Source: Anaerotruncus sp.
Lineage (GTDB): Bacteria > Bacillota > Clostridia > Oscillospirales > Ruminococcaceae
Direction: 5' to 3'
Assembly (NCBI GenBank): GCA_021770005.1
Contig: JAETRV010000016.1
Location: forward strand, 1 to 55,900
Length of the DNA: 55,900 nucleotides
In this document: in pieces, positions 4,215 to 36,928 of the stretch
Numbering within the stretch: the stretch's first letter is position 1
Layout of the letters: each line of letters opens with the position of its first letter
Notes under the pieces: generated by a model
Told to the model about the DNA's origin: nothing
Seen by the model: the letters and a program-made list of their open reading frames with translations, nothing else
Databases searched by the model: none
Program-made: the position numbers and the translations under genes

Positions 4215-4381
4215 TTAGAAGCTGTACCATTAGCCGAAGTACGCAGATTGGCGAGCAAATTTTTTGACTGTCGAAGTCTCAAAAACGCCGGAATCCTTTA
4301 TGGCTTTCAAGTTTTTGAGACAAAGACAGGCGGGAAATTTGCCGGCAAGATGTGTGCGGCGGCTATTGGTACGGCTTCTTA
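4215..4381. mobile_element. 167-bp MITE-like element with 22-bp terminal inverted repeats
   Basis: The ends TTAGAAGCTGTACCATTAGC... and ...GCTATTGGTACGGCTTCTTA are inverted repeats of 22 bp with three mismatches. Inside, GTCTCAAAAAC (4276-4286) pairs with GTTTTTGAGAC (4311-4321), CTGTC pairs with GACAG, and GCAAATTT pairs with AAATTTGC, so almost the whole element folds into one long imperfect hairpin. No coding sequence was seen. It abuts the next element at a shared TTA. Confidence 0.75.
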
Positions 4382-4397
4382 GAGCCTGTTTCAAATC

Positions 4398-4456
4398 TAG
4401 GGGCTGTTTGAAAAATCGAAATCACCGTCTTTTTCTCTATTTTCAAACAAGCCCTA
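4398..4456. mobile_element. Small 59-bp element with TIRs nested inside the large element
   Basis: Ends TAGGGGCTGTTTGAAAA and TTTTCAAACAAGCCCTA are inverted repeats. Copies of the host element at 15515 and 19571 lack this stretch and read straight from AAATC-(TA) into AAGCTTTACTC, so the piece looks inserted at a TA that was duplicated. Related ends occur at 2249-2270, 19782-19819 and about 31271-31289. Confidence 0.75.
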
Positions 4457-4606
4457 AAGCTTTCCTCAATTTTTCTCGAAAAATTGCGGTTTCCACTGCG
4501 AGCTGTAGCGAAGCGTTTCGGAGCGCAACCGCCGAAGGCGGCTCTTAGCGCGGAGATTCGTGGTTCCCCGTCCAGCAGCTTGTTGATTTTATCAACAAGC
4601 TGGGTA

Positions 4607-4635
4607 GGGGGCTTTTTACAAGAGAAAAAGCCCCC
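4607..4635 (-). terminator. Repeat-borne hairpin terminator of the D,D-carboxypeptidase gene
   Basis: GGGGGCTTTTT and AAAAAGCCCCC form an 11-bp stem around a 7-nt loop, with the T-run built into the stem as in bidirectional terminators. It lies about 25 bp past the minus-strand stop codon. Confidence 0.6.
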
Positions 4636-4658
4636 TGCAAAAGATTTTAAACAGGCTC

Positions 4659-6158
4659 TTACATGCGGCGTCTGCGGCGGCGCGCCTTATACCGGCGGCG
4701 GTTATGGTTGCGGATCAACATCAATGAAATATAGAGCACCAATACCACCACAAAGAATACCAGCACAAATTTAAAGAGGAAGGTATCGAGGAAACTTTTT
4801 GCCTGGTCGAGATAGTAGAGGGATTTGCTGAGCGGGACCGTCTCCGCCGCGACCAGGTCGACCGTCCCCAATTCCTCCCCCGCAAGCACGATCTTCAAGC
4901 TGCCGATCTTCTGCCCTTTCTTAATCGGCGCATCGATGATCTGCGGATAATCGGGAATCGGGGAGACGTCATCCCTGCCGGTCTCTTTCGGCACAAGGTA
5001 GGAGAAGCTGCTCGCCGCAAGCAGGTTGATCTTATCCACATCCCAGTTCAGCCGTACCGCAACCTCGGTGGCCTCCTCTCCGGCCTCCATCAGGGTTTTG
5101 ACCTCAAAGGTATCGAACGCCCAATCATAGAGTTTGCGGGTATCGAACCACGGTAGGAAGTTTTGATAGGCAATCCCATCCGGGCTTTTGGCGGGCGCAC
5201 CCAGGCAGACCAGCAGATAGCTATAGCCGTCGCGGGTGGCGGTCGAGATAAAATTGCGGATATTCTGGTCGGGCAGGGAGCCGGTCTTGACCCCTTTCAG
5301 CCCTTCGTAATAGTCCTCATTGCCCGGCTTCTGCATGTTGTTGATGCTGGTCCAGAGGATCCCGTTGGGGTGGCGCTCGGTCGGATCGGAGGTATAGACC
5401 AGAGTGGTCACGATCTCGACAAACTTGTCGTTCTCCATCGCATATTTAGCGATCAGCGCCATGTCGTAGGCTGTGGTATAGCTGTTCTCGCTGTAGAGGC
5501 CGCTCGCGTTTGCAAAGTTGGTGTTTTTCGCCCCGATCTCCCGCGCCTTTTCGTTCATCATCTCGCAAAACCGCTCAATGCTGCCATCCCCCACGAAGTC
5601 GGCAACCATCATGGCCGCCTCGTTGGCCGATTGGAGCATCATCGCATAGAGCAGATCGCGCACCTTGAGCTCTTCGTTGAGGTAGATGCCGCCGAGGGTA
5701 TCCACCTGGAGGTTATAAAGCTCGTTCTGGATATAGGCTTTGAGGGGGGTGGTCTCTTCGAGGTCCATCCCGCTCTCAAGCGCGACAATACAGGTCATGA
5801 TCTTGGTCAGAGAGGCGGGCGGCATCCGCACATCCGGCGATTTCTGGTAGATCGGGGTATCCGAATCAAGGTTGAGCATATAGATGGCCTGCGAGTACAG
5901 CTCCTGCTCAAACGAAGGCTTGTACCGGTTCAGGTTGTCCACCGCGGAAACATCGCCGGGGGCAGCGGCTCCGGACGACGCCTCGGAGGAAGCGCCGCTC
6001 GAACTGCTTTCCTCCGACGAAGAACCGGACGAAGCGGTTCCGGACGAGGAGGACTCCGCGCTGCTCGAGCCGCCGGAAGGGCCAGTGGCAAAAGCCGGGA
6101 CCGCCAGCGAGGCGCAGAGGATCCATATCGCAAGCAGAAAAGCGCATTTTTTCATCAT
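4659..6158 (-). CDS. D-alanyl-D-alanine carboxypeptidase (PBP5/DacF family)
   Basis: A serine peptidase that trims the terminal D-Ala from peptidoglycan stem peptides. From the ATG at 6158 (499 residues) it has a signal peptide (about 1-25, ending PAFA), a Ser/Glu/Ala-rich low-complexity linker (about 26-68), and the active-site triad of motifs SLTK (S116-K119), SAN (177-179) and KTG. A C-terminal beta domain follows, then a transmembrane segment and a very basic tail. PBP5 relatives usually use a C-terminal amphipathic helix, so a true membrane span is a variation. GGCGGAG sits about 10 nt upstream of tandem ATGs; either could start. The stop codon comes from the adjacent miniature element. 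Confidence 0.93.
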   Translation of the reverse strand: MMKKCAFLLAIWILCASLAVPAFATGPSGGSSSAESSSSGTASSGSSSEESSSSGASSEASSGAAAPGDVSAVDNLNRYKPSFEQELYSQAIYMLNLDSDTPIYQKSPDVRMPPASLTKIMTCIVALESGMDLEETTPLKAYIQNELYNLQVDTLGGIYLNEELKVRDLLYAMMLQSANEAAMMVADFVGDGSIERFCEMMNEKAREIGAKNTNFANASGLYSENSYTTAYDMALIAKYAMENDKFVEIVTTLVYTSDPTERHPNGILWTSINNMQKPGNEDYYEGLKGVKTGSLPDQNIRNFISTATRDGYSYLLVCLGAPAKSPDGIAYQNFLPWFDTRKLYDWAFDTFEVKTLMEAGEEATEVAVRLNWDVDKINLLAASSFSYLVPKETGRDDVSPIPDYPQIIDAPIKKGQKIGSLKIVLAGEELGTVDLVAAETVPLSKSLYYLDQAKSFLDTFLFKFVLVFFVVVLVLYISLMLIRNHNRRRYKARRRRRRM

Positions 6159-6386
6159 GCCCAAACCAATCTCCGCCGCCGAAAGCGGATATGCACAATC
6201 GGCCGTTCCAGCGGCAAATTTTGGAGCGGCCAAAGAAAGAATTGCAGGGAAAGGGGAATTATGCTAAACTGTTCCTATATGCATGTCTAAGCGGAACAGG
6301 CGAATATATATTTAGTATACCAAAATTCCGCTGAAAAGGAAAGCAAATTTTCTATAAACTTTGCAGGGGCGACAGGAGGACTGAAT

Positions 6387-7679
6387 ATGCTGGATTTTGA
6401 AAACCGGGGATTTGGATTTGACACTCTGATGGTGCACGCCGGGACCGAGGCCGATCCGGTGACCCACGCGATCGTGCAGCCGATCACCCAGACCACCGCT
6501 TACACGTTTGACAGCGTTGACCATGCGGCGCGTCTGTTTGAACTGAAAGAGCCGGGCAACATCTACACCCGCCTGAACAATCCAACCGTGGATGCGCTCG
6601 AGCGGCGGGTTGCCGCGCTCGACGGGGGCGTGGGCGCGCTGGCGATGGCGTCGGGACATGCGGTGATCTTCAACACGATGCTCAACCTCGCAAACGCGGG
6701 GGATGAGATCGTCTCTTCGATCTGTATTTACGGCGGCGCAATCAATATGCTGGGCATCACCCTTGACCGGATCGGGATCAAGGTCAAGTTCGTGGACCCG
6801 GGCGATCTGGACGCGTGGGAAGCCGCGGTCACCGGCAAAACCCGGGCGTTTTTCGTGGAGGCAATCGGCAACCCGAATGCCAACGTTGCGGACATCGAGC
6901 GGATTGCGGAGATTGCCCACCGGCATGGAATCCCGCTCATCGTCGATTCGACCTTCACCACCCCCTACCTGATCCGGCCGATCCAATTCGGCGCTGACTA
7001 TGTGGTCCATTCGGCGACCAAGTTCCTCGGCGGTCACGGTACTTCGATGTGTGGGATCGTGACCGATGCGGGTACCTTTCAATTTAAGGACAACCCCCGG
7101 TTCCCGCTCTACAACGAGCCGGACAAAAGCTACCATGGGGTTGTATTTGCCGATTGCGGCCCACAGGCATTCATCCTGCGGCTGCGCGCCATGATGCTCC
7201 GCGACCTCGGGGCCTGCTGCGCGCCGATGAACGCTTTCCTGATCCTACAGGGGATCGAGACCCTTTCCCTGCGGATGCAGAAACATTCGGAAAATGCGCT
7301 CGCTGTCGCCAGATACCTCGAGGGACACCCGCAGGTCGCGTTTGTCAACTATCCGGGTCTGGAGAGCAGCCCCTACTACCCGCTGGCGCAGAAATACCTG
7401 CCAAAGGGCGCGGGCAGTGTGTTCACCTTCGGGCTGAAGGGCGGACGGGAGAGCGGCGCAAAGTTTATCAATGCGCTCAAGCTGTTCAGCCATGTGGCAA
7501 ACGTGGGGGACGTGCGCTCCCTCGTCATCCACCCGGCAACCACCACCCATAGCCAGCTTTCGGAGGAACAGCTGGTGGAAAGCGGGATTACCTCGTCAAC
7601 CGTACGGCTGTCGGTCGGCATCGAGGACGTCAAAGACCTGATTGCCGACCTGGAACAGGCGATTGCAGCGGCCTGCTGA
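6387..7679 (+). CDS. metY: O-acetylhomoserine sulfhydrylase / aminocarboxypropyltransferase
   Basis: A PLP enzyme of the Cys/Met-metabolism family that makes homocysteine (or methionine with methanethiol) from O-acetylhomoserine. The 430-residue length and the start region (FDTLMVHAGT, QPITQTTAY) are typical of MetY. The PLP lysine is K212 in HSATKFLGG. The ATG follows ACAGGAGGACTGAAT, an excellent ribosome site. I see no SAM riboswitch or T-box in the short leader, and no other methionine genes nearby. Next downstream is a lipoprotein gene 23 bp away that may share the transcript. Confidence 0.93.
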   Translation: MLDFENRGFGFDTLMVHAGTEADPVTHAIVQPITQTTAYTFDSVDHAARLFELKEPGNIYTRLNNPTVDALERRVAALDGGVGALAMASGHAVIFNTMLNLANAGDEIVSSICIYGGAINMLGITLDRIGIKVKFVDPGDLDAWEAAVTGKTRAFFVEAIGNPNANVADIERIAEIAHRHGIPLIVDSTFTTPYLIRPIQFGADYVVHSATKFLGGHGTSMCGIVTDAGTFQFKDNPRFPLYNEPDKSYHGVVFADCGPQAFILRLRAMMLRDLGACCAPMNAFLILQGIETLSLRMQKHSENALAVARYLEGHPQVAFVNYPGLESSPYYPLAQKYLPKGAGSVFTFGLKGGRESGAKFINALKLFSHVANVGDVRSLVIHPATTTHSQLSEEQLVESGITSSTVRLSVGIEDVKDLIADLEQAIAAAC

Positions 7680-7702
7680 ACAGGTTCAGAAAGGGAATTG
7701 CC

Positions 7703-8380
7703 ATGAAACAAAAAGGACTCGCGGCAGCGGTGATGGCGGCTGCCCTGTTATTGACCAGTTGCGGAGGAACTCCCGAAAAAGAATTGGACCAGTTCCTCTT
7801 GCAGGAGGGGACGGCGCTGACCGTCCAGCTTGAAGAACTCGCGGGCAGTGAAGCCTATATCGACCTGATGACCGGGGAAGAGATGATCAAAGCCGAACTT
7901 TCCGGGATCGAGGGTTCCGGATTCCAGAACCCCAAACAGGTGTATCTGATCTCCTTTCCCGAGGACCACTGGATCGGTTTGCTGGACCAGATGACCGACC
8001 GCCAAACCGCTGACCTCCCTGACAATATCCGGGAGGTGGTCAACAGCCGGATCAACAGCACCTTATTTTCTTCGATGGTGAACGCGGGATACGGTACGGT
8101 CCCCCTCGCCTCTGCCACGCTGGTTTCGTTTGGGAAGTCGTACCCCATGCCGAAAGGGTGGGAGAACAACGCGCTGCTCCTCTTCGAATGCGAGGGCGGC
8201 TATTCCAGCCTGGTGTCGTTCACCCGAACCGGGGATGGCGTCATCAGCGGCTATGTCAGCCCGCTGAAAAACGGGGACGCAGGCGCATGGGCCTCGTTGG
8301 AAGGGTTTCTTGATCTCGACGGGAGCCTGCAATATTCGGTCTATTCCGGGGAGGATGCGGCCGCGCTGCTGGCCAACTGA
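7703..8380 (+). CDS. Putative lipoprotein of unknown function
   Basis: I do not recognise the family. The 225-residue product starts with MKQKGLAAAVM and a hydrophobic stretch ending in a lipobox (LLTSC, Cys near 22), so it should be lipid-anchored outside the membrane. The mature part is acidic with no transmembrane segment and no motif I can name. AAAGGGA lies upstream of the ATG. It sits between metY and a phosphoesterase gene, all on the plus strand with short gaps, suggesting one transcript, but nothing links the functions. Confidence 0.8.
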   Translation: MKQKGLAAAVMAAALLLTSCGGTPEKELDQFLLQEGTALTVQLEELAGSEAYIDLMTGEEMIKAELSGIEGSGFQNPKQVYLISFPEDHWIGLLDQMTDRQTADLPDNIREVVNSRINSTLFSSMVNAGYGTVPLASATLVSFGKSYPMPKGWENNALLLFECEGGYSSLVSFTRTGDGVISGYVSPLKNGDAGAWASLEGFLDLDGSLQYSVYSGEDAAALLAN

Positions 8381-8415
8381 CCGGCTGAAATTTTCTGCGA
8401 AAAGGGGTATATGCA

Positions 8416-9084
8416 ATGCTCTATGTGACGGGTGACATCCATGCGGATATTCGCCGATTAAAGGGCCGGGCGGCAAAACAACTAAAAAAAGGGGATACCC
8501 TGCTGGTCTGCGGGGATTTTGGGTTTTTGTGGGACGGCTCCCCCAAGGAGCACAGGCTGCTCGACTGGCTCGGCAAACGTCCTTATCAAATCCTGTTTGT
8601 TGAGGGCACTCACGACAATATCGACCTACTGTCCGGCTATCCGGAGGATACGCTTTATGGCGGGAAGGTGCGCCGGGTGAGCGGGAACTGCTGTCAGCTC
8701 CTGCGCGGCGAGTGCTATGAGATCGAGGGGAAACGCATCTTCGCATTGGGCGGGGGCGAAAGTACCGATATGGATATCCGTGTGGAAGGGGAAACCTGGT
8801 GGAGCGGTGAGCTGCCCTCCGCCGAAGAGCTGGCGCACGCGCGCGAAACGCTGGCGTCGCTCGATCAGCAGGTGGACTATATCATCACCCACAGCGTCGC
8901 CCCGACTGTCAACAAATTCCTCGACCGGGAACAGATGCAGATCAACCTGCTGTTGGCGTTTCTCAATGAGATCTCTGAGACGGTGCAGTTTAAGCGCTGG
9001 TATTTCGGAAGCTGCCATCTGGATAAGAATATCCCACCCAAATATTGTGCAGTCTATCAGGAGATCCTGCCGGTCAAAGATTAG
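8416..9084 (+). CDS. Cytosolic metallophosphoesterase
   Basis: A calcineurin-like phosphoesterase of 222 residues without signal peptide. The N-terminus carries the metal ligands TGDIHAD (about 5-11), followed by CGDFGF and the EGTHDN motif (GNHD-like with Thr for Asn), a GGGES stretch, and later THS. The GTHDN variant occurs in a clade of uncharacterised phage and Firmicute phosphoesterases. The substrate is unknown. AAAAGGGG precedes the start. The stop TAG runs directly into TAGGGGC, resembling a degenerate small-element end. Confidence 0.85.
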   Translation: MLYVTGDIHADIRRLKGRAAKQLKKGDTLLVCGDFGFLWDGSPKEHRLLDWLGKRPYQILFVEGTHDNIDLLSGYPEDTLYGGKVRRVSGNCCQLLRGECYEIEGKRIFALGGGESTDMDIRVEGETWWSGELPSAEELAHARETLASLDQQVDYIITHSVAPTVNKFLDREQMQINLLLAFLNEISETVQFKRWYFGSCHLDKNIPPKYCAVYQEILPVKD

Positions 9085-9178
9085 GGGCCGCTTCTTGCGG
9101 GTGAATCACCCGCCAAAGGGCGGAAGAGAGGACTTTTAGCAGGTGAAAAAACATCCTGCAAAAGATTTTGATAGCGCT
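9082..9178. repeat. Degenerate copy of the dispersed repeat
   Basis: After TAGGGGCCGC the segment GGGTGAATCACCCGCC...GGGCGGAAGAGAGGACTTTTAGCAGGTGAAAAAACATCCTGCAAAAGATTTTGATAG follows the order of the canonical repeat (GGGTGAATTGCCGC, GCGGCAAGAGGGGGCTTTTT, CCTGCAAAAGATTTT) with many substitutions. It looks like an old, decayed insertion. Confidence 0.5.
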
Positions 9179-9179
9179 A

Positions 9180-9216
9180 AAAAGGAGCATCCGGTTCCCT
9201 CCCGGATGCTCCTTTT
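9180..9216. terminator. Bidirectional terminator between phosphoesterase and M14 peptidase genes
   Basis: AAAAGGAGCATCCGG pairs with CCGGATGCTCCTTTT (15 bp, short loop). The A-run and T-run on either side fit termination from both convergent genes. A second hairpin (ATGGGGACGC/GCGTCCCCAT) follows at 9264-9287. Confidence 0.85.
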
Positions 9217-13251: not shown

Positions 13252-13336
13252 GTTTTACTGCTTTCTTTAGAAAGCAGTAAAACGGACGTCCGTTTTACTG
13301 CTTTCTTTAGAAAGCAGTAAAACGGACGTCCGTTTT
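13252..13336. repeat. Two tandem 40-bp units, each a double palindrome
   Basis: Unit 13252-13291 is repeated exactly at 13292-13331, then GTTTT begins a third. Each unit holds a hairpin with a 14-bp stem (GTTTTACTGCTTTC / GAAAGCAGTAAAAC, loop TTTA) and the palindrome GGACGTCC, itself extended to AACGGACGTCCGTT. It lies 28 bp upstream of the glycosyltransferase start and downstream of the Na/Pi transporter stop. Confidence 0.9.
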
Positions 13337-15201: not shown

Positions 15202-15514
15202 TTCTTTTACGCCTCCTATTATATCGGATCGGCCTACTTTTGTATACCCTCTGCCCGCAAATTTGCAGTTTGTTACAAACCATCCCCCCCAATGCAGCAT
15301 GGATTGGGGGGATTTGCCAACTTTTTTGCAGTTTTCCTTTGAATACCCCATTCAATTTTCAACAAAAGCCGGTTTAAACAGGGGGAAAAGATAAATTATA
15401 AACCGCTTTACAGCCCTTATTGTGCTGTGCAGCCTGCTTTGGGTCCTCACACTTTCCAGCCTATCCCTTGAAAAAAATAGGGCGGAATGGTATGATAGAG
15501 TACAGATTATCGTT
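15162..15514. other. Intergenic region upstream of the Na/Pi transporter
   Basis: Apart from the possible leader frame I see a TATAAT-like -10 on the minus strand near 15216-15224, and a hairpin ATCCCCCC...GGGGGGAT at 15282-15313. No gene is supported here. Confidence 0.4.
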
Positions 15515-15700
15515 TTTAGAACCTGTCCAATATCTAAAAGCTTTACTCAATTTTTCTCGAAAAATTGCAGGGTCGAGGGGCAGCGCCCCCGCCGCCGCGC
15601 GCACTGCGAGCCGCAGCGAAGCGTTTCGGAGCGCAACCGCCGCAGACGGCCCTTAGCGCGAAGATGCGGCGGAACAGGTCCTCGGGAGAAACCGGCGGGC
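15515..15700. repeat. Large-element copy with only its left end
   Basis: It starts TTAGAACCTGTCCAATATC and continues AAAAGCTTTACTCAATTTTT-CTCGAAAAATTG, GGGGCAGCGCCCCC, the GC-rich GAAGCGTTTCGGAGCGCAAC module and GATGCGGCGGAAC. It lacks the GGGGGCTTTTT hairpin and the right terminal repeat. The lipoprotein gene follows immediately. Confidence 0.75.
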
Positions 15701-15713
15701 AAGAGGTATTTAC

Positions 15714-16340
15714 ATGAAAAGAATCCTGTTTGCACTTTTGATTTTTACCCTGATCCTGGCCACAGGATGTCAAAAGGGCACAAAACAACCGGAAATCGTG
15801 CCCTTTCAAATGGCGCCTTCTACAGATGGGGTTGACTTGTTTTTGGAGCTTGCCGATGATTTTGACCATGCGGATGCCGGAAGTTGTTACGCCATTGCCC
15901 CATCGGAAATCTCCGCGCAATATGGTTTCTATCTTTTTAAATTTGATGGTTCCTGTGCGAGCTACCTGTTGTACGAGAACATTGTCTACCCGCTCGGGGA
16001 ATGGTTTGGGGGCTATGGGGCGACCTCTTTTGCTATCGCTGATTTGAGCGGCGACGGCAAACCCGAATTATATTTCACCTGTTCCTGGGGTTCGGGGATA
16101 CATCGCTCCCAGGTGGGATATTTTGATCCTGCTGACCGTCAGGTGCTCCTGTTTCCCTTTTCTGATATTGGGCATGACTTGGTACTTGCGCCGGATAAGG
16201 ATGGTATCCTGACCGTTTACCGGGCGGCAGAATGTGATGCCAGATCATTTGTGGAGATTGCGCTGTCCGCTGGGGAAAAAGCTGCGTCGATCCACTGGGA
16301 AGGGGAACGGATCACCTTAAAAAGTGATTGGAAACAATGA
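15714..16340 (+). CDS. Putative lipoprotein of unknown function
   Basis: A 208-residue product with a lipoprotein signal: MKRILFALLIF, hydrophobic core, lipobox LATGC. The mature part contains DLSGDGKPELYFTC, an FG-GAP/EF-hand-like DxxGDGxxE loop, so a beta-propeller-like or calcium-binding repeat fragment is possible. AAGAGG lies upstream of the ATG, directly at the edge of a dispersed repeat. Its stop overlaps the downstream ATG in ATGA, suggesting coupling to the FUSC-like gene. No function can be assigned. Confidence 0.75.
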   Translation: MKRILFALLIFTLILATGCQKGTKQPEIVPFQMAPSTDGVDLFLELADDFDHADAGSCYAIAPSEISAQYGFYLFKFDGSCASYLLYENIVYPLGEWFGGYGATSFAIADLSGDGKPELYFTCSWGSGIHRSQVGYFDPADRQVLLFPFSDIGHDLVLAPDKDGILTVYRAAECDARSFVEIALSAGEKAASIHWEGERITLKSDWKQ

Positions 16341-19467: not shown

Positions 19468-19511
19468 GTATTCATCTCCTGTTCCGATCTGCTGGTTTCA
19501 AAACAACCGTC

Positions 19512-19819
19512 CGGCAGGGGCGCTGCCCCTCGACCCCGCCACCTTTGAAAAGGTGGACGAAACTTTTAGTTTAAGAGCCTGTTTAAAATCGAAAAGCTTT
19601 ACTCAATTTTTCTCGAAAAATTGCGGGGTTGAGGGGCAGCGCCCCCGCCGCCGCGCGCACGCGGCGGAATACCTTATCCTGTGAAGCGCATTTTTCGGGT
19701 GAATTGCCGCCTATGGGCGGCAAGAGGGGGCTTTTTGCAAGTGAAAAAGCCCCCTGCAAAAAATTCTGAACAGGCTCTTATAAAAAAGACTGCGATTTTG
19801 ATATTTCAAACAGCCCCTA
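19512..19819. mobile_element. Repeat cluster: module B, full large element, and small-element end
   Basis: Module B (GGGGCGCTGCCCC, CCACCTTTGAAAAGGTGG) occupies 19512-19566. The complete large element 19571-19781 runs from TTAAGAGCCTGTTTAAAATC to TTCTGAACAGGCTCTTA, with GGGGCAGCGCCCC, CGCCGCGCGCACGCGGCG, TTGCCGCCTATGGGCGGCAA and GGGGGCTTTTTGCAAGTGAAAAAGCCCCC hairpins in order. A small-element end (ATATTTCAAACAGCCCCTA) reaches 19819 and supplies the stop codon of the ycxB-like gene. The last hairpin probably terminates the gyrB operon. Confidence 0.85.
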
Positions 19820-20503
19820 GCTGACTACCTGATGCGGCTTTTCAAAATTTTTGCAGACCTCATCCAAAAGTGCGTTAAGCGCGCCCGCTTGGTTTAGGAT
19901 CTCCTGTTTCGGAATCAGCAGGCACCGCTTTTCATCCAGCATAATCATATAGAGGTTCTCGCTGGTTTTGACCGCCTGGATATTATGCCAGAAGGTCTCC
20001 GCCTGCTGATCCCCCACATGCTCGATAAACCGGTTGGGATAAAAATCCACCGTGATTTCGCTGCGCAGATAGGAGACCCTTTCATACTGTTTTTTCAGCA
20101 TCTTGCGCAGGGCCTTTTCATAGAAAAACCGGTAGTAGCAAAGCCCATAGATACCCGACCCGATTAACACTGCGACGATAAACCAGGAAAGCCCATTCAT
20201 AGGGATCCGCATAAACCAGAGTGCGGCCAGATAGATGATCCCGAATGCCAGCTGGATGGAACCCAATAGGATGGTCCGCTTCCTTCCCTTTTCGATTGAT
20301 TCCCTGCCCATAATCATCTGGAATGTGACATATTCCTCAAACGGGATGTGGTAGGTAAGGGTGAACAGCTTTGCCAGCCGCTGTTCTGTTTCCTGTATCT
20401 CGGAAACCTCCACATCCCCTGCGGCTGCTTCGTCAAGCAGTTCCTGCATCATCTCTTCGGAGGTATCGCTCACAATCTCGGTGTCAAAATCCTGCTCGCT
20501 CAT
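19817..20503 (-). CDS. YcxB-like family membrane protein
   Basis: A 228-residue protein with an acidic N-terminus, two adjacent transmembrane segments (about 78-100 and 105-127) and a C-terminal YcxB-type domain: FHxNxF-like VDFYPNRFIEH, then FWHNIQAVKTSENLYMIML and LLIPKQ. The family is widespread in Firmicutes without known function. AAGGAGG precedes the ATG and the gene begins 12 bp after gyrB, so it is in the gyrB operon. Its TAG stop codon is the first triplet of a small-element terminal repeat. Confidence 0.75.
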   Translation of the reverse strand: MSEQDFDTEIVSDTSEEMMQELLDEAAAGDVEVSEIQETEQRLAKLFTLTYHIPFEEYVTFQMIMGRESIEKGRKRTILLGSIQLAFGIIYLAALWFMRIPMNGLSWFIVAVLIGSGIYGLCYYRFFYEKALRKMLKKQYERVSYLRSEITVDFYPNRFIEHVGDQQAETFWHNIQAVKTSENLYMIMLDEKRCLLIPKQEILNQAGALNALLDEVCKNFEKPHQVVS

Positions 20504-22480: not shown

Positions 22481-22756
22481 TTACCGGCTGATATTCGCGA
22501 TGTCATCAATAAATCCCGCTCGCTTTTTGAGCGTTGCGGAAGAAATTTGCGTAATATAGACTATCTGCTTCCCTTTCCAAGCGCAGATGACAAATGATTT
22601 CGGCAGTTCATAGGAGACATTGCATACCCTGCCTTCTTTTTCTGCCTGTGTCAGAAATTCTTTGGTCAGCTTGGATATTGAGGTATTTTCCAAATCGAAG
22701 ATGCCTATGACTTCCCTGGAACGCACTACCGTATCCTGCCCGAGATGTAGATACAT
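22481..22756 (-). CDS. remB: Extracellular matrix regulator RemB-like (DUF370 family)
   Basis: A 91-residue protein beginning MYLHLGQDTVV, matching RemB/YaaB, which lies between recF and gyrB in Bacillus as it does here. In B. subtilis RemA/RemB act in biofilm-matrix control; RemA is a DNA-binding protein, while RemB's mode of action is less clear. The small size and position support the call more than any catalytic motif. AAGGAGG lies upstream. The role in a Clostridium-type cell is unknown. Confidence 0.85.
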   Translation of the reverse strand: MYLHLGQDTVVRSREVIGIFDLENTSISKLTKEFLTQAEKEGRVCNVSYELPKSFVICAWKGKQIVYITQISSATLKKRAGFIDDIANISR

Positions 22757-22764
22757 GCTTTCCT

Positions 22765-22865
22765 CCTTGCGAGGGGCGGGGGCTCTGCCCCTCGACCCCG
22801 CGATTTTTTGTAAAAAATCGAGTAAAACTTTAGGTTTTTAATAGGCTTTGAGAGCTACGCGAGGC
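22765..22865. repeat. Truncated large-element copy between recF and remB
   Basis: On the minus strand the order GCTCTCAAAGCC, AAAGTTTTACTCGATTTTTT, AAAATCGCGGGGTCGAGGGG and GCAGAGCCCCCGCC reproduces the left part of the large element. The insertion splits the otherwise compact recF-remB junction. Confidence 0.7.
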
Positions 22866-24209: not shown

Positions 24210-24227
24210 CTTTTTTCCTTTATATTC

Positions 24228-24533
24228 ATGAAAGGTTTCGTCCACCTTTTCAAAGGCGGCGGTTTCCACTGCAAGCAACAGCGAAGCGTTTTGAGCGCAG
24301 TCGTCGAAGGCGGCTCTTGGCGCGAGAAAAACGCGGAATGTTTTATCTTGAGAAGCGCCAAACCGCTTACAAGCGGTTTGGCAAGAGGAAGGGTGATACT
24401 GGCGGGGAAACACGAAAGCGAGCCGAATCCATGAGGCGAAGAGAGTGCGGCCCGCAGGCCGCCTTTCGGAGCGCAACCGCCGTAGGCGGCTCTTAGCGCG
24501 GAGATTCGTGGTTCCCCGTCCAGCAGCTTGTTC
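24228..24533. repeat. Repeat modules filling the dnaN-yaaA gap
   Basis: It holds a reverse copy of module B (CGTCCACCTTTTCAAAGG), two copies of the GC-rich module (near 24264-24330 and 24465-24530, each with AGCGAAGCG or GGAGCGCAACCG and AAGGCGGCTCTT or TAGGCGGCTCTT), an AAACCGCTTACAAGCGGTTT palindrome, and GATTCGTGGTTCCCCGTCC as seen at 4556-4574. No gene is supported here. Confidence 0.75.
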
Positions 24534-27970: not shown

Positions 27971-28062
27971 GGATGTTGGAGAGCGGGGCCGCTTGCATTA
28001 AAATTAGGTGCTGGAAGTTCATTCTGTGCTTTTTGGAAAGCGCGTCTCAAGAGAAAGCGTTC

Positions 28063-28135
28063 TTCCTCCCGCGCGGCGGCAGGGGCGCTGCCCCTCGGCT
28101 CCGCAGCCTTTGAAAAGGCTGGCGAAGCTTTGTGT
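28063..28135. repeat. Module B repeat inside the rpmH-rnpA gap
   Basis: GGGGCGCTGCCCC and a CAGCCTTTGAAAAGGCTG hairpin followed by GCGAAGCTTTG. This is module B with compensatory changes in the second stem (CCACC/GGTGG becomes CAGCC/GGCTG), so pairing is conserved although sequence is not. Confidence 0.75.
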
Positions 28136-28192
28136 TTTGTCTGGGACGGCCTCCAGGTAAAGGTCATGAAAATTGCGGCAGGGAGGATTGGG

Positions 28193-31241: not shown

Positions 31242-31261
31242 GGATGCAGAGGGGATTTCTC

Positions 31262-31432
31262 CTTTATCCTGTTTCAAACAGCCCCTAAAATCCAAAGGTT
31301 TGCTCGATTTTTTCACTGCCGTTGCAGCGGCATACATGGGCCAACCGGCGTGAAGCGGAAATGCTTAGGCCGGACTGAAAAATCGCGGGGGCTTTGTTCC
31401 CTGCAAAAGATACGGAAACAGATTCTTAGATG
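31262..31432. repeat. Diverged repeat remnants upstream of mnmE
   Basis: A small-element end (GTTTCAAACAGCCCCTA) is followed by AAAATCCAAAGGTTTGCTCGATTTTTTCAC, a diverged left part of the large element, and later GGGGGCTTTGTTCCCTGCAAAAGATACGGAAACAGATTCTTAG, a diverged right end. The middle is replaced by unrelated sequence. Confidence 0.55.
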
Positions 31433-31444
31433 GGGAGGACATTT

Positions 31445-32812
31445 ATGGAGAATGAGACGATAGCAGCAATCGCTACGCCGCATGGTGTTGGAGGCATCGG
31501 AGTGGTGCGGCTGTCTGGCCCGCAAGCAATTCCGATTGTGGGGCGGGTTGCGCGGCTCTCCCGGGGAAAACAGCTTTCGGAGATGGAAGGGTACACCTGC
31601 GCCTATGGGCGGGTTTTTGATGAGGAAGGTGAGATTGACGAGGCCATTCTGACGCTTTTTCGCGAGCCGCACAGCTATACGGGTGAGGACGTGGTCGAGA
31701 TTGCAGCACATGGTGGGATTTATCTGATAGACCGGATTTTGCGCGCTTGTTGTTCAGCGGGGGCGTGTCCCGCACAGGCGGGCGAGTTTACCCGGCGGGC
31801 ATTCCTCAACGGGAAACTCGATCTCACACAGGCAGAAGCGGTTGCCGACCTGATTTCCGCACAGGGGAAGCAGGCCGCGCGTGCCGCACTCACAGCGCGG
31901 GATGGTGCACTCTATCGGGAAGCGGAGCGAATCTGCGGGGAATTGACCGGATATGCCGCACATCTTGCGGCATGGATTGACTATCCGGAAGAAGGGATCG
32001 CCGAAGTGGATCCATCCGCGCTGGCAACCGGTCTGCGGGGTTGTGGGGCGGCTTTGGAAAAGCTGTCCGCCACTTATGACGCCGGAAGGGTGGTCCGGGA
32101 GGGGATCGAAACCGCGATTGTCGGCCGCCCCAATGTGGGCAAGTCAACATTGATGAACCTGCTTTCCGGGTTTCAGCGGAGCATTGTTTCGGATTGTGCC
32201 GGGACCACCCGGGATGTGGTGAGTGACACGGTACAGCTTGGGGATTTGATGCTGCACCTCTCGGATACCGCTGGCATCCGTTCGACCGATGATCCAATCG
32301 AGCGCCAGGGAGTGCGGATGGCACAGGACCGTCTCGAACGGGCACAACTGATACTTGCGGTGTTTGACGGCTCTGAACCGCTTGACGCGGACGATTTAAA
32401 GATAGCGGAAGCTTGTCAGGGGATTCCTACGGTTGCACTGGTCAATAAGCGCGACCTTCCCCAGCAGATTGATCTCGAGCCACTCAGGCGAATGTTCCAA
32501 AAGGTGCTGGTGATCTCTGCGGATCAATCGGATGATCTGGAACCGCTCAGACAGGAGGTTGAGCGGCTGTTTGAGATTGGGAGCTTTGATGCTGGTGCAG
32601 CGGCAGTGGCCAACGAACGGCAGCGCGGTGAGGTGCGGCGCGCCTGTGACGAGGTACAGCAGGCGATAGATGCGCTCTCTTCCGGGGTGTCCTATGACGC
32701 GGTGTGTGTCTGCATCGAGGCGGCAGTCGATGCACTGCTCGCCCTCACCGGGAAACGCGCATCTGAACAGGTGGTGGAGCAGGTCTTTTCCCGGTTTTGT
32801 GTTGGAAAGTGA
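31445..32812 (+). CDS. mnmE: tRNA uridine-5-carboxymethylaminomethyl GTPase MnmE
   Basis: With MnmG it modifies wobble U34 of several tRNAs. From ATG 31445 (GGGGAGG upstream; 455 residues) it shows the N-terminal folate-binding domain ([17 protein letters not shown]), the helical domain, and an inserted GTPase domain with [16 protein letters not shown] and NKRD, ending with the catalytic FCVGK. An in-frame ATG at 31430 overlaps the ribosome site and is not used. mnmG follows 13 bp later. Confidence 0.97.
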
Positions 32813-32825
32813 AAGGAGAGAATAG

Positions 32826-34715
32826 ATGCAATACTATCATGCGGATGACTATGAAGTCGCGGTAGTTGGCGCGGGCCACGCGGGGATAGAAGCGGCCCTT
32901 GCAGCGGCGCGGTTGGGTGCGAAAACGGTGTTATTTACCATCTCGCTCGATGCGATTGCAAATCTTCCTTGCAATCCCTCGATCGGTGGGACCGCAAAGG
33001 GGCATCTGGTGCGGGAGGTGGACGCGCTCGGCGGGGAGATGGGAAAAGCCGCTGACGCCACCTTCCTGCAAAGCCGGATGCTCAACCGAGGGAAAGGCCC
33101 CGCAGTGCACAGCCTGCGGGTACAGACCGACCGCAGGGCTTACCACGCCTATATGAAACGGGCGGTGGAGACACAGGAAGGATTGTCGGTCAAGCAGGCG
33201 GAGATTGTGGAACTTCGGGTAGAGGATGGGGAGATTGCCGGAGTTGTAACTGCGATGGGTGCTGTCTATGGTGCGAAAGCGGTGATCCTTGCCACCGGGA
33301 CCTATTTAAGAGGAAAAATTTTCGTGGGGGAGTACAGTGCTGAGAGCGGCCCGGATGGACTGCATCCGGCGCGGCAGCTTTCGGATTCTCTGGAAAAGCT
33401 GGGAATCCAGCTGCGGCGGTTCAAGACGGGTACCCCCGCGCGGGTGGACCGGCGGTCGATCGACTTTTCCAAACTGGAAAAGCAGGAGGGGGACGACCCG
33501 ATTGTCCCGTTTTCGTTCGAGACCGATCCCTACGGCTTACAGAACCAGGTCTGCTGCTATATGGCTTACACCAATGAACGCACCCATCAGGTAATCCGCG
33601 ATAACCTGGACCGTTCCCCGCTTTACGGCGGGCAGATCGAAGGGGTCGGCCCGCGTTACTGCCCGAGTATCGAGGATAAGGTGGTCCGTTTTCAGGATAA
33701 GCCCCGGCACCAGCTCTTTGTGGAACCAATGGGCATAGACACGAATGAGATGTACTTGCAGGGGATGTCCTCCTCGCTTCCGGAAGAGGTGCAGATAAAA
33801 TTTTATCGCACGATCGAGGGGTTTGAGCGGCTTGAGATCATGCGCAGTGCTTACGCGATTGAGTATGACTGTATCGATCCCACCTGCCTTAAGGCATCGT
33901 TGGAGTTCCGTTCGGTCAAGGGATTGTATGGAGCGGGACAGTTCAATGGCACCTCGGGGTATGAGGAAGCGGCCGCACAGGGCCTGATTGCGGGGATCAA
34001 TGCGGCCCGCCAGACACAGGGAAAGGCCCCATTGGTGCTCGATCGCGCCAGCTCGTATATCGGCACGCTGATTGATGATCTGGTCATCAAGGGCTGCAAC
34101 GACCCCTATCGGATGATGACCTCCCGCTCGGAATACCGGCTCCTGCTCCGCCAGGACAACGCAGACGCGCGCCTGACCCCGACCGGATATGAGATTGGGT
34201 TGATTGGAGAAGAGCGGTTTGCGCGGTTTCAGGAGAAACAGCGGAAGGTCGAACGGGAGATTCAGCGGCTACAGAAAACCACGATTCCGCCAGGAGAGGG
34301 ATTGAATGCGCTGCTTGTTTCACGTGAAACAGCCCCGATCACGACGGGAATCCGGCTTTATGAGCTGTTACGCAGACCACAGATCGGTTATGCAGACCTC
34401 GCGCCATTTGATCCATCCCGCCCCAACCTGCCGCCGGAGGTGCAGGAACAGGTGGAAATCACAATCTCGTACGAGGGTTACATACAAAAACAGCTTGTAC
34501 AGGTCGCACAGATGCGAAAGCTCGAGGGGCAGGCCCTGCCCGAAACGCTTGATTACCGGGAAATCCGCGGGCTGCGGCTTGAGGCAATCGAAAAATTGGG
34601 TAGGCTTCGCCCCGCAAATATCGGGCAGGCTTCCCGTATCAGTGGAGTTAGTCCGGCGGATATATCGGTACTTTTAATCTGGCTTGAACAGCATAGACGG
34701 GGGGCAGCAGAATGA
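32826..34715 (+). CDS. mnmG: tRNA uridine-5-carboxymethylaminomethyl enzyme MnmG (GidA)
   Basis: FAD-dependent partner of MnmE, 629 residues. The FAD-binding VVGAGHAGIEAALAAARLG is at the N-terminus, followed by NPSIGG and GRGPAV-like NRGKGPAVHSLR; GTSGYEEAAAQGLIAGINA and the helical C-terminal domain complete it. AAAGGAG precedes the ATG. A perfect 16-bp parS lies inside the gene (34316-34331), encoding part of LLVSRETAP. The stop overlaps rsmG by ATGA. Confidence 0.97.
   Translation: MQYYHADDYEVAVVGAGHAGIEAALAAARLGAKTVLFTISLDAIANLPCNPSIGGTAKGHLVREVDALGGEMGKAADATFLQSRMLNRGKGPAVHSLRVQTDRRAYHAYMKRAVETQEGLSVKQAEIVELRVEDGEIAGVVTAMGAVYGAKAVILATGTYLRGKIFVGEYSAESGPDGLHPARQLSDSLEKLGIQLRRFKTGTPARVDRRSIDFSKLEKQEGDDPIVPFSFETDPYGLQNQVCCYMAYTNERTHQVIRDNLDRSPLYGGQIEGVGPRYCPSIEDKVVRFQDKPRHQLFVEPMGIDTNEMYLQGMSSSLPEEVQIKFYRTIEGFERLEIMRSAYAIEYDCIDPTCLKASLEFRSVKGLYGAGQFNGTSGYEEAAAQGLIAGINAARQTQGKAPLVLDRASSYIGTLIDDLVIKGCNDPYRMMTSRSEYRLLLRQDNADARLTPTGYEIGLIGEERFARFQEKQRKVEREIQRLQKTTIPPGEGLNALLVSRETAPITTGIRLYELLRRPQIGYADLAPFDPSRPNLPPEVQEQVEITISYEGYIQKQLVQVAQMRKLEGQALPETLDYREIRGLRLEAIEKLGRLRPANIGQASRISGVSPADISVLLIWLEQHRRGAAE
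34316..34331. promoter_or_regulatory. parS site, perfect consensus, within mnmG
   Basis: TGTTTCACGTGAAACA matches the ParB/Spo0J consensus at all 16 positions. It is intragenic, about 6.7 kb from the dnaA-rpmH gap and 3.6 kb from parB. Confidence 0.95.
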
Positions 34716-35425
34716 TCGACACCGCAAAGTTAAACAGTTATGCCGAAGGGATTGGCTTGACGCTTGGGCAAGCCCAACTGGAAGCCTTTGATCTCTATGC
34801 ACAGATGCTGGTCGAATGGAATCAGAAGATCAATTTGACCGCGATTACACAGCCTGAAGAGATCGTGGTTAAGCATTTTTTGGATAGTTTGATGCTGCTT
34901 TCTGTGGTTTCACCAATGCAGGGCGCCAGACTGGTGGATGTGGGAACCGGAGCGGGGTTCCCCTCGGTCCCGGTCAAGATCGCCCGCCCGGACCTGGAAC
35001 TGACTCTGTTGGATAGCTTGAACAAGCGGATACTCTTTCTAAAAGAGCTTTCCGACGCCCTGGGGCAGCAGAACCATTGTGTCCATATCCGAGCCGAGGA
35101 GGCGGGGAGGGCCCCCGCGTATCGGGAGCAGCACGACCTCGCGACGGCGCGGGCGGTTGCACATCTGCGGGAACTTTCAGAATATTGCCTGCCGCTTGTC
35201 CGGGTTGGCGGGCGGTTTGCGGCGCTCAAAGGCGGGCAGGTAGAACGGGAGATCGAAGAGTCGCAAAAAGCGATCCGCGAGCTTGGGGGAAAAATCGCCG
35301 AAATTCGACAATTTTCGCTGCCGGACGGAAGTGCCCGGACCATCGTTGTGATTGAGAAAATATCGCAGACTTTGACAAAATATCCCCGTACGCACGCAAA
35401 AATAGCAAAATACCCATTGATTTGA
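34712..35425 (+). CDS. rsmG: 16S rRNA (guanine527-N7) methyltransferase RsmG
   Basis: A SAM methyltransferase of 237 residues that methylates G527 of 16S rRNA. Motif I VDVGTGAGFPSVPVKIA and the N-terminal WNQKINLTAI stretch are characteristic. It overlaps mnmG by four bases, as in the usual mnmE-mnmG-rsmG operon. Loss of this methylation elsewhere gives low-level streptomycin resistance. Confidence 0.95.
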   Translation: MIDTAKLNSYAEGIGLTLGQAQLEAFDLYAQMLVEWNQKINLTAITQPEEIVVKHFLDSLMLLSVVSPMQGARLVDVGTGAGFPSVPVKIARPDLELTLLDSLNKRILFLKELSDALGQQNHCVHIRAEEAGRAPAYREQHDLATARAVAHLRELSEYCLPLVRVGGRFAALKGGQVEREIEESQKAIRELGGKIAEIRQFSLPDGSARTIVVIEKISQTLTKYPRTHAKIAKYPLI

Positions 35426-35538
35426 TCCAAAATTTATGGATTTTATGGGGATTTCTGCGATGAAAAAAGCTGGTCAAAATGAATATTTCATGGTAAGATA
35501 GTGACAGGTCAAGGAGATCGGAGAAAGGATGTGAAAAA

Positions 35539-36372
35539 ATGGGGATGTTTACGAAACAAAAAACCATCAGCAAAGTGCTTTCACTCAACATCCGGGAAAT
35601 TTCTTCGAACCCTTACCAGCCACGAAACCAGTTTGACCCCAAAGCTTTGCAGGAGCTGGCAGACAGCATCGCCCAGAACGGGCTTCTGCAACCGGTCACG
35701 GTCCGCGAGTGGGAGAACGGTTATCAGTTGATCGCCGGGGAACGCCGGCTGATGGCTTGCAAGATGCTGGGAATGGAACAGATTCCTGCGATTGTAAACC
35801 GAGTTGACGATGAAAAGTCCGCAGTTTTCGCGCTGATTGAGAACCTCCAACGGAAGGACCTCAACTATTTTGAGGAGGCACAGGGAATTCAAACCCTGAT
35901 GCAGACAACTGGTATGAGCCAACAGGAGGTGGCGAAAAAGCTGGGGAAAGCGCAGTCAACGGTTGCGAACAAGCTCCGCCTGCTCTGCTTCAGCGAGGAG
36001 CTGCGGCAAAAGATGCTGGACAACGGGTTGACCGAGCGGCACGCGCGCGCATTGCTCCGCCTGCCGAATGAGCGGTTGGTCAACGAGGCGATCCAGTACA
36101 TCGTTGCCGAGCGGTTGAATGTAGGGGAGAGCGAGCGCTATATCGAATCCCTCCTCACCGCGGTACCCGAGCAGCCGCAGAGCAAGCCCGCAACCCGCTT
36201 GTTCGTTGTAAAAGACCTCCGCATTTTTATGAACACGATCACAAAGGCGGTCTCAACTATGCGGCTTGCAGGAATCGAAGTGGATACCAGCAAGCAGGAG
36301 GACGAGGAGTACATCCATTATTTGGTGAAGATTCCCAAAAAGAGCGCTTATCGGAGCTCACATTCTGCATGA
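35539..36372 (+). CDS. noc: Nucleoid occlusion protein Noc (ParB-like)
   Basis: A ParB-superfamily protein of 277 residues in the canonical Noc position between rsmG and parA. It contains the CTP-binding ParB domain with GERRLMACK and a helix-turn-helix QQEVAKKLGKAQSTVANKLRLL. Noc proteins bind their own palindromes and block division over the nucleoid. A membrane-targeting N-terminal helix is not obvious, so a second chromosomal ParB is possible. GGATG lies nine bases before the ATG. Confidence 0.88.
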   Translation: MGMFTKQKTISKVLSLNIREISSNPYQPRNQFDPKALQELADSIAQNGLLQPVTVREWENGYQLIAGERRLMACKMLGMEQIPAIVNRVDDEKSAVFALIENLQRKDLNYFEEAQGIQTLMQTTGMSQQEVAKKLGKAQSTVANKLRLLCFSEELRQKMLDNGLTERHARALLRLPNERLVNEAIQYIVAERLNVGESERYIESLLTAVPEQPQSKPATRLFVVKDLRIFMNTITKAVSTMRLAGIEVDTSKQEDEEYIHYLVKIPKKSAYRSSHSA

Positions 36373-36453
36373 CCAATCCCTGTCTGCGATGGGTGAAACA
36401 GCACGCCCGGCGCCTACAGGTTGGTAAATAAATTTTATACACGTTTCCCTGTC

Positions 36454-36480
36454 AAAAAACCTCCGTTTCGGGGGTTTTTT
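36454..36480 (+). terminator. noc terminator
   Basis: AAAAAACCTCCG, loop TTT and CGGGGGTTTTTT form a strong hairpin with a T-run about 80 bp past the noc stop. Confidence 0.85.
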
Positions 36481-36495
36481 GGCGTTTTACAGCAA

Positions 36496-36511
36496 TGTTT
36501 CATGTGAAACA
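36496..36511. promoter_or_regulatory. parS-like site upstream of the parA promoter
   Basis: TGTTTCATGTGAAACA, one change from consensus in the centre, which keeps both half-sites intact. It lies 21 bp upstream of the parA -35 box and may allow ParB autoregulation. Confidence 0.82.
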
Positions 36512-36532
36512 TTACAATTTTCAAAAAATCGC

Positions 36533-36561
36533 TTAACAAACAGGACAGGCTGTGCTATAAT
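36533..36561 (+). promoter_or_regulatory. Promoter upstream of parA-parB
   Basis: TTAACA (36533-36538), a 17-bp spacer and TATAAT (36556-36561). The -10 box is also the left end of a perfect palindrome. Confidence 0.85.
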
Positions 36562-36650
36562 ATCCGCAGAGCGGATATTATAGGGCTTATGGCCTATGAT
36601 AGCATTTCGCTACGCTTCATGCTATCATATCCGCAGAGCAGATATGATAG
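36556..36650. repeat. Three tandem palindromes overlapping the parA promoter
   Basis: TATAATATCCGC-AGA-GCGGATATTATA (36556-36582) is perfect. ATGATAGCA...TGCTATCAT follows, then CTATCATATCCGC-AGA-GCAGATATGATAG (36622-36650) with one mismatch. The first and third share TATCCGCAGAGC and TATAGGGCTTA-like flanks, so they are related copies. Confidence 0.8.
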
Positions 36651-36654
36651 GGCT

Positions 36655-36928
36655 TAGAGCCTGTTTAAAATTAGAAACTTTACGCAATTTTTCTCGAAAA
36701 TTGCGGTTTCCACTGCGAGCCGCAGCGAAGCGTTTCGAGCGCAACCCGCCAAAGGCGGGCACTTAGCGCGAGGTAAGGCAGAGCCTTTGGCTACTCGCCG
36801 CGGCGAGCGGAATACTTTAATCCTGTGAAGCGCATTTAAGGGGTAAATTGCCGCCCTTCAGGCGGCAAGAGGGGGGTTCTTGCAAGTGAAAAAGCCCCCT
36901 GCAAAAGATTCTGCGTAGGCTCTTAGAT
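36655..36928. mobile_element. Full-length large miniature element between noc and parA
   Basis: It runs from TTAGAGCCTGTTTAAAATTAG to GATTCTGCGTAGGCTCTTAG with TTA at both edges. It contains CTCGAAAATTGC, the AGCGAAGCGTTTCGAGCGCAA module, AAGCGCATTTAAGGGGTAAATT, a TTGCCGCCCTTCAGGCGGCAA hairpin and GGGGGGTTCTTGCAAGTGAAAAAGCCCCC. With 274 bp it is the longest uninterrupted copy. No gene is supported in this gap. Confidence 0.8.

Follow-up and report, generated by a model that had tools for sequence, protein, structure and literature searches.

The window, i.e. the whole stretch of 55,900 nt of Anaerotruncus sp. DNA that was analysed, holds two things that the preliminary description had taken as one, a family of miniature inverted-repeat transposable elements (MITEs), here family A, and a separate hairpin unit of ~161 nt. 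The unit is probably a multicopy structured repeat spread through the order, which in this genome is enclosed by an IS5-type MITE.

The family-A MITE measures ~200–290 bp and displays 16-nt terminal inverted repeats (TIRs) and 3-bp TWA target duplications, both features of the IS5 type. The TIR sequence, of the form GAGCCTRTTYARAATC, suggests IS5-type MITE ends, since TWA duplications together with TIRs beginning GAGCCTGTT are marks of an IS5 subgroup; the attribution is based on the type of TIR and duplication only, because no transposase-bearing element with the same TIRs was found among the transposase matches inspected. At three mismatches or fewer the TIR is matched 60 times forward and 59 times in reverse in the 2.93-Mb genome, versus once and once for the reversed pattern, which confirms genome-wide the multicopy TIR family proposed earlier. 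The ends form 36 pairs facing inward, most of them 123–514 nt apart and one 1690 nt, with identical outer triplets in 20 of the 36 (permutation mean 11.1; 20 was reached in 4 of 20,000 permutations). BLAST with two window copies returned at least 63 and at least 50 matches (40 candidates out of 327 were scored for one copy and 40 out of 269 for the other), and the 211-nt copy matched in only four of 11 congeners, the genome of the window itself (G000) among the four. The three complete copies described earlier, from 4379, 19571 and 36655, are all present with slightly refined limits. Their TTA edges hold for the first and the third, but the second carries TAA on its left side. These copies, with their contents and adjoining pieces, are:

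4379..4661, + strand: complete family-A MITE; TTA, TIR 4382-4397, unit with altered middle, TIR 4643-4658, TTA.
4456..4636, + strand: variant six-hairpin unit in this first MITE (model R1, 74.4 bits).
4400..4454, + strand: mini-element B between TA dinucleotides, nested in the first MITE; its ends match IS5-type elements of G006.
19572..19780, + strand: complete family-A MITE; TIRs 19575-19590 and 19762-19777, triplets TAA (left) and TTA (right).
19593..19755, + strand: six-hairpin unit, P1 to P6, inside MITE 19572..19780 (R1, 184.5 bits).
19783..19820, - strand: piece of element B (I9) adjoining MITE 19572..19780.
36654..36925, + strand: complete family-A MITE; TTA/TTA, right TIR degenerate.
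36674..36900, + strand: six-hairpin unit with an inserted middle module, inside MITE 36654..36925 (R1, 102.9 bits).

The nested element B at 4400-4454, which the earlier list did not contain, has the ends of complete 848-bp IS5-type elements of G006. Inspection of 30 DDE_Tnp_1 matches, from the 42 listed across 11 congeneric genomes, did not turn up a full-length transposon with exactly the family-A TIR, which the preliminary description proposed to look for. The nearest insertion sequence among those inspected is an element of G007 (TIR GAGCCTATCCCGAAAT; edges TAA/TAA); these edges, on the G007 insertion sequence with a TIR starting GAGCCTATCCC, are the same kind of triplet as in the family-A MITE. 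In the element's own genome the sole PF01609 transposase match has an internal stop and no family-A TIR around it, and the 1.69-kb TIR pair on contig C101 encloses an ORF that reads as membrane-protein-like, not as a transposase.

The gap between gyrA and the preceding ORF is 349 nt in the window versus 13–53 nt in eight of nine congeners (in G009 it is cut), and in the alignment with G006 a gap of 33 nt stands against 298 unaligned nucleotides in the window. The copy on the gyrA side is thus absent from these relatives. This site and the target duplications support a non-autonomous TIR element, as had been supposed. For a unit free of TIRs, no clean empty site was obtained when locus L303 was compared with relatives, where a different sequence lies beyond the gene and, in those cases in which both were listed on one contig, it and the right-hand gene are not adjacent. 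As a raw count, unit matches occur in four of the six gaps between blocks of synteny with G006.

Inside the MITE, one strand of the unit is predicted to form six hairpins, numbered P1 to P6 after their constant order. In the window 24 matches to model R1 reach E ≤ 1; some cover the model from end to end, at 47707-47866 and in the three MITEs, bearing out the ordered set of hairpins noted earlier. The copies outside the complete MITEs are:

47707..47866, + strand: full six-hairpin unit without family-A TIRs, following another repeat module at ~47619-47706 (R1, 180.3 bits).
1..117, + strand: unit cut by the contig end (R1 match).
55784..55900, - strand: unit cut by the contig end (R1 match).
15537..15728, + strand: incomplete or altered unit; a TIR-like start lies near 15515 (R1, 59.4 bits).
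22737..22831, - strand: partial unit (R1, 57.7 bits).
28032..28131, - strand: partial unit (R1, 45.8 bits).
24231..24387, + strand: partial unit, with a related module again at 24461-24532 (R1, 37 bits).
19483..19566, - strand: partial unit adjoining MITE 19572..19780 (R1, 33.6 bits).
4085..4207, - strand: partial unit (R1, 31.3 bits).
37789..37844, + strand: 3' part of the unit, P5-P6 (R1, 20.5 bits).
2115..2145, + strand: P6 alone (R1, 20 bits).
9024..9157, + strand: weak unit match with a recognisable 3' part (R1, 19.1 bits).
54270..54317, - strand: P5-P6 remnant (R1, 14.7 bits).

R1 recovers the truncated copies previously placed at 1, 9082, 15515, 22765, 24228, 37750, 47700, 54255 and 55785, but not the one at 31262, which carries another TIR (family B); the matches at 28032-28131(-), 19483-19566(-), 4085-4207(-) and 2115-2145(+) are additional. 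Both contig ends lie inside unit copies, and therefore the repeat may break short-read assemblies.

The search by covariance models, suggested at the outset, found the unit throughout the genome. It also turned up in 35 of the 148 genomes searched from the family, in 53 of 295 from the order and in 5 of 398 from across the phylum; within the order, model R2 places it in no fewer than 37 of the 149 genera sampled and leaves 242 of the 295 genomes without a match. Among mobile replicons, phages searched with the window element and plasmids searched with a unit of genome G135 gave no match, nor did viral contigs searched with one exact pattern. R2 applied to 80 named loci among the ParA matches listed gave one match at E 0.66 and one at E 0.00038, the latter coming from an uncultured Clostridia MAG and truncated where the locus stops. 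This distribution bears directly on whether the hairpins are simply the interior of a MITE, as first described, with TIR-less copies as its decayed members. A family-A TIR flanks at least one side of 42 of 48 copies in G000 (a figure inflated by the fact that these loci were fetched partly by TIR), 12 of 38 in G006, none of five in G007 and not the single copy in G004. In G000 24 of the 48 have it on both sides, and this, with the TWA duplications, is what a plain MITE family would predict. In other genera, however, none of 65 unit copies has both TIRs and two have one, which is the chance level (~3.6 flanks of 130 expected); 63 of the 65 show no family-A TIR in the 60 nt that flank them left and right, yet the unit keeps its structure and its edges, which are sharp without TIRs. 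The plain MITE is an unlikely explanation, already strained by these counts and by the 53 genomes in which R2 finds the unit, and the description of the hairpins as MITE interior is not supported.

Strong compensatory base changes, seen among copies of one species as well as between species, support the fold. In 44 copies (alignment A1 comprises the better 44 of 63 candidates) 170 cells changed on both sides of a pair, versus 46.7 shuffled and 2–52 slid; between genera, in 65 copies, 664 such cells compare with 164.8 shuffled and 82–186 slid, and 44 of the 47 stem pairs covary. RNAalifold predicts 39 pairs on the 65-copy alignment, 36 of them with double changes. Few pairs are broken: G000 has 6 among 817 and G006 has 5 among 777 (shuffled-partner means 66.8 and 79.6). 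P4 pairs poorly (84.8% in 44 copies, 73.1% in 65), and in the single-sequence minimum-energy fold of a window copy, which is more stable than shuffles (z −3.75), the local P1 is lost to a longer-range pairing. G-U pairs exceed A-C mismatches by 16:4 and 46:11 in two counts, alignment A3 being fitted to a model that itself favours G-U over A-C; therefore it seems that what folds is one strand, either RNA or single-stranded DNA (ssDNA), and it may be in that form that the unit is selected. P1, P2 and P3 come in distinct block alleles, which are found in new combinations from copy to copy, and recombination may thus account for some of the covariation. To ascribe all of it to processes at the DNA level, quasi-palindrome correction and gene conversion making the stems look selected, is nevertheless improbable in view of the G-U excess on one strand and of the hairpin order, the loops CGCA and GCAAGAG and the linker GGTGAATT, all kept across genera.

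The same strand-specific structure and conserved loops and linker would be expected of a small RNA gene family acting in trans for the host and amplified in some genomes. We give this little credence, given the patchy occurrence in the order and the many decayed copies in the window. At the gathering score, Rfam families in the window are limited to an L10 leader and two tRNAs, with none for the unit, and in five loci four matches at E ≤ 1 all fell below the gathering score; the best of them, AsrC (28.6 bits against a gathering score of 111), lies outside the element.

The last hairpin had also been likened to a bidirectional terminator, with most copies at operon 3' ends. Of 97 matches classified in G000 by crude ORF calls, 29 lie in convergent and 11 in divergent gaps, and elsewhere, by the same crude calls, the figures are 18 and 7 of 54, so that the proposed location has some basis, but 57 of the 97 lie between co-directional genes. 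Moreover, one unit in G135 begins 4 nt past a stop codon, and in four of five congeners the same gene is followed by a hairpin with a T-run, as judged by eye. The hairpin itself lends the terminator reading no support: five or more T in the eight bases after P6 are found in 0 of 50 copies in G000, 3 of 38 in G006, G007 and G004 and 2 of 32 in other genera; P6 is not among the terminator-like sites in a scan of 36300-48000, which covers two full copies and a fragment; and between co-directional genes the unit shows no preferred strand (28 vs 29 in G000 and 16:13 elsewhere, from crude ORF calls). Six conserved hairpins also exceed the needs of a terminator. Thus, domesticated terminators or 3'-end elements spread by recombination are a poor candidate.

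The structured repeat enclosed by a MITE is then best pictured as two layers. The outer one, the family-A MITE with its TWA duplications, would be mobilised in trans by a putative DDE transposase, presumably of IS5 type. The inner one would be cargo, a unit whose own history in the order reaches much further; one of its strands seems to fold as RNA or ssDNA, with compensatory changes keeping the stems while loops and linkers stay recognisable; the folded strand would serve the upkeep or spread of the unit itself. The MITE ends probably came to enclose it in the lineage of the window, rather than being lost elsewhere, and would have added a route driven by transposase. The unit has no TIRs of its own, is intergenic in either orientation, multicopy and patchy, and therefore most resembles a selfish structured repeat, perhaps mobile by itself, and not a cis-element of its neighbours. 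A bolder reading, less likely than not, is that it represents a class of selfish element, so far undescribed and spread through the order, that encodes no protein. Its ~161-nt strand would have to adopt the six hairpins, in RNA or ssDNA, before the machinery of the host or of a foreign element could copy it; such an element occurs singly or in convergent inverted pairs separated by further hairpins, and can be enclosed by unrelated transposon ends.

Most descriptions of dispersed bacterial repeats are confined to a single species or genus. The present one, structured and with no Rfam family, can be traced by covariance models through at least 37 of the genera sampled in one order. This opens to testing whether RNA or ssDNA is the form in which such repeats are kept and how a repeat free of proteins keeps spreading, and it offers a case of a MITE enclosing an independent element. 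No description of it was found in the titles and abstracts searched, a weak result with most subscription papers outside reach.

Several known systems share part of these features. IS5-family MITEs resemble family A in their TIRs beginning GAGCCTGTT, the 3-bp TWA duplication, the lack of room for a transposase and the many intergenic copies; family A differs in carrying an independent structured unit, and a partner insertion sequence with the same TIR was not found among those inspected. REP and BIME sequences, associated with Y1 (RAYT) transposases, are likewise dispersed intergenic hairpins with a strand-specific fold, whereas the unit has ~161 nt and six hairpins. The single Y1 match in the genome is IS200-like by reading and lies at a contig edge that hides one of its sides, the visible side having no unit. 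The Correia elements and NIMEs of Neisseria, named in PMC3049150, are intergenic repeats of composite build, their internal sequence being bounded by inverted repeats; compared by description, they differ in host, sequence and interior. The BOX elements of Streptococcus pneumoniae are presented as modular, intergenic, regarded as parasitic, predicted to form stem-loops if transcribed, and with ends that have been compared with an insertion sequence (PMC3049150). Compared by description, the present repeat shares with BOX, which is built of boxA, boxB and boxC modules, the modular build, intergenic location, predicted stem-loops, comparison of the ends with an insertion sequence and presumed parasitic nature; it is set apart from BOX by the constant order of its six hairpins, by covariation that extends across many genera and by the presence of TIRs in one lineage only.

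The three complete copies of a hairpin-rich MITE claimed in the preliminary description were recovered in the window, as were nine of its ten truncated copies, the tenth not being recovered. Two layers can be told apart in them: an outer one, bounded by the 16-nt terminal inverted repeat (TIR) of family A, and an inner repeat of about 161 nt, hereafter the unit, made of six hairpins (P1 to P6).

Complete copies (target triplets included) and a nested element in the window
4379-4661: first complete MITE copy
4400-4454: mini-element B, with another TIR, nested in the first copy between TA dinucleotides
19572-19780: second complete MITE copy, left triplet TAA, right triplet TTA
36654-36925: third complete MITE copy

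The genome of origin (G000; 2.93 Mb in 155 contigs, the window being contig C129) contains 60 forward and 59 reverse TIR matches with up to three mismatches, versus 1 and 1 for a reversed-pattern control. With the 283-nt copy as BLAST query at least 63 matches were obtained, and with the 211-nt copy at least 50, the best 40 candidates being scored in each case. Inward-facing TIR pairs, drawn with every row retained from 302 kb of fetched stretches picked for holding matches, numbered 36 (one from the congener G006) and measured 123 to 1690 nt from tip to tip, with clusters at 202-204 and 254-285 nt. Of these pairs, 20 have the same outer triplet at both ends, where permutation gives 11.1 on average (20 or more in 4 of 20,000 permutations), and 20 of the 23 pairs with TTA or TAA at both ends agree (11 of 20,000 permutations). 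Ends of this type together with a 3-bp TWA duplication agree with the IS5 family. The MITE reading holds for the outer layer in the window's species.

A transposase with exactly the family-A TIR was not found in the own genome or among 30 loci inspected in the genus, taken from 42 listed matches to PF01609-type transposase genes in 6 of its 11 genomes. The only PF01609 match of G000 has an internal stop and no family-A TIR around it. The nearest ends among the inspected loci belong to an IS of the congener G007, GAGCCTATCCCGAAAT, with TAA on both sides. The ends of element B match complete IS5-type elements of G006, both ends in six of seven loci (L213-L219), the element in L213 being 848 bp long. 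An IS200-like Y1 transposase, with other hairpins behind it, lies at a contig edge (G000:C73:10-312, L192).

Comparison with G006, the closest relative in which copies were found, revealed sites with and without the repeat. Beside gyrA, where blocks are 88% identical, 298 nt of the window are unaligned versus 33 nt in G006, and the distance from gyrA to the ORF ahead (taken by position in the congeners) is 349 nt in the window versus 13-53 nt in the eight measurable of nine other congeners; two neighbouring repeat pieces are part of this insertion, so that a single clean event does not account for it. In G006 the window's gaps at 24221-24531 (about 310 nt) and 27979-28174 (about 195 nt) have counterparts of about 50 and 28 nt. 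The reverse case is seen at C24 34888-35049 and 45337-45497 of G006, where units are present and the window has none. Units also match in four of the six gaps that separate blocks of altered order between both genomes.

Gaps between rearranged blocks, window coordinates
4106-4659 (start set by the end of the G006 stretch compared)
15336-15918
42595-42651
47594-47896
49162-50702
54234 onward

The contig ends (1-116 and 55785-55900) are identical over 116 nt in inverted orientation, each inside a unit copy; the repeat is the probable cause of the break in the assembly. Other features were seen in the window: a 40-nt palindromic sequence in two perfect tandem copies (13252-13331), with a similar sequence in G006; a 43-nt palindromic sequence in two diverged copies just ahead of the third MITE (36553-36662), with a promoter-like match nearby (36533-36561); and a ribosomal protein L10 leader on the minus strand (50249-50406; Rfam RF00557, 65.7 bits).

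The inner layer is wider than the MITE: it is a structured repeat found across the whole order, elsewhere without those ends. Full unit copies are sharply delimited, by (A)AAAGTTT at the 5' side and by the foot of P6 at the 3' side, TIR-less copies included. A TIR (up to five mismatches, within 60 nt) flanks at least one side of 42 of 48 full units in G000 (both sides in 24), a share that is too high as many loci were fetched by TIR; the values are 12/38 in G006, 0/5 in G007, 0/1 in the congener G004 and 2/65 in other genera, with 112 of 4000 random flanks matching (about 3.6 expected per 130). Immediately before the unit there is often another repeat module (..CCCCTCCCCGTAGGCCCC..), seen at 47619-47706 of the window and in several G006 loci (L222-L254).

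A covariance model of the unit (R1) detected it in 35 of 148 genomes and 31 of 123 genera of a family sample, and a second one (R2), built from the other-genus alignment A3, in 53 of 295 genomes and 37 of 149 genera of an order sample, with eleven families among the matches listed. In a phylum sample 5 of 398 genomes carry the unit, four of them, the window's included, in the same order. Copies per genome are lower bounds in all three samples, the best 19, 9 and 7 candidates being scored. The sole match outside the order in the phylum sample (G478:C66:13324-13451, E 1.3e-15) reflects either transfer or contamination. Of the 11 genomes of the genus, 4, G000 counted, gave BLAST matches to the 211-nt copy. 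Phages searched with the window element and plasmids searched with a unit of G135, from another genus, gave no match. Convergent unit pairs, 104-340 nt apart with extra hairpin-like sequence between them, occur in 11 of 53 loci, in three other genera (G154, G101 and G073).

Loci with convergent inverted unit pairs
L311, L312, L317, L318, L319, L321, L327, L330-L333

The six-helix structure shows an excess of paired changes. G000, G006 and G007 supplied 63 candidate copies for alignment A1; the 44 included are mostly the better-preserved ones. In A1 96.0% of cells are paired and 170 are altered on both sides, versus 46.7 with shuffled partners and 2-52 with slid structures; further pair types show no excess over shuffles (34 vs 34.2). 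The inner four pairs of P3 are standard in all 44 copies, each with three to four pair types. A3, with 65 other-genus copies (E<=1e-12, 53 loci) fitted to R1, is 95.4% paired, with 664 both-side cells versus 164.8 shuffled and 82-186 slid, and double changes in 44 of 47 pairs; RNAalifold on it gave 39 pairs, 36 with double changes. P4 is weakly paired (84.8% in A1, 73.1% in A3). Folded singly, a window copy is stabler than shuffles (z -3.75), its P1 region pairing with the downstream linker. Divergence in stems and unpaired columns is 0.090 and 0.129 in G000 and 0.118 and 0.105 in G006, with 6/817 and 5/777 broken pairs versus 66.8 and 79.6 with shuffled partners. P1, P2 and P3 occur as discrete alleles in many combinations among copies, which points to recombination between unit copies.

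G-U/U-G exceed A-C/C-A in the stems, 16:4 in the sequence-only alignment (P4 and one non-pairing column excluded) and 46:11 in the cross-genus one (P4 excluded; the model favours G-U), so that the ability of one strand to fold, be it as RNA or as ssDNA, seems to be important. Gene context was classified with greedy ORF calls for 97 of 108 matches in G000 (partial ones included) and 54 of 65 elsewhere. Between co-directional genes the two orientations are balanced (28 vs 29 in G000, 16 vs 13 elsewhere), and convergent gaps hold more units than divergent ones (29 vs 11 and 18 vs 7), the window's own 40 gene pairs including five of each. This pattern favours a function within the element, together with promoter avoidance, over a fixed role in neighbouring transcripts.

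Domestication as terminators, proposed in the preliminary description, is not supported: at least five T within 8 bases after P6 were seen in 0/50 copies of G000, 3/38 of G006, G007 and G004, and 2/32 of other genera (32 of 65 taken). None of the 14 terminator-like sites of 36300-48000 is P6, and one such site (47677-47692) sits in the module ahead of the unit at 47707. In other genera the unit may act at 3' ends, given that one unit of G135 begins 4 nt past a stop codon and that, in four of the five congeners of G135 shown, the same gene is followed by a hairpin and a T-run, judged by eye.

The unit was compared with the systems treated in papers on BOX, RUP and SPRITE (PMC3049150), MITEs (a review, PMC10969869) and REP (a survey, PMC12306157). 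Without claiming its membership in BOX, RUP or REP, we place the unit, by its behaviour, among the small dispersed structured repeats.
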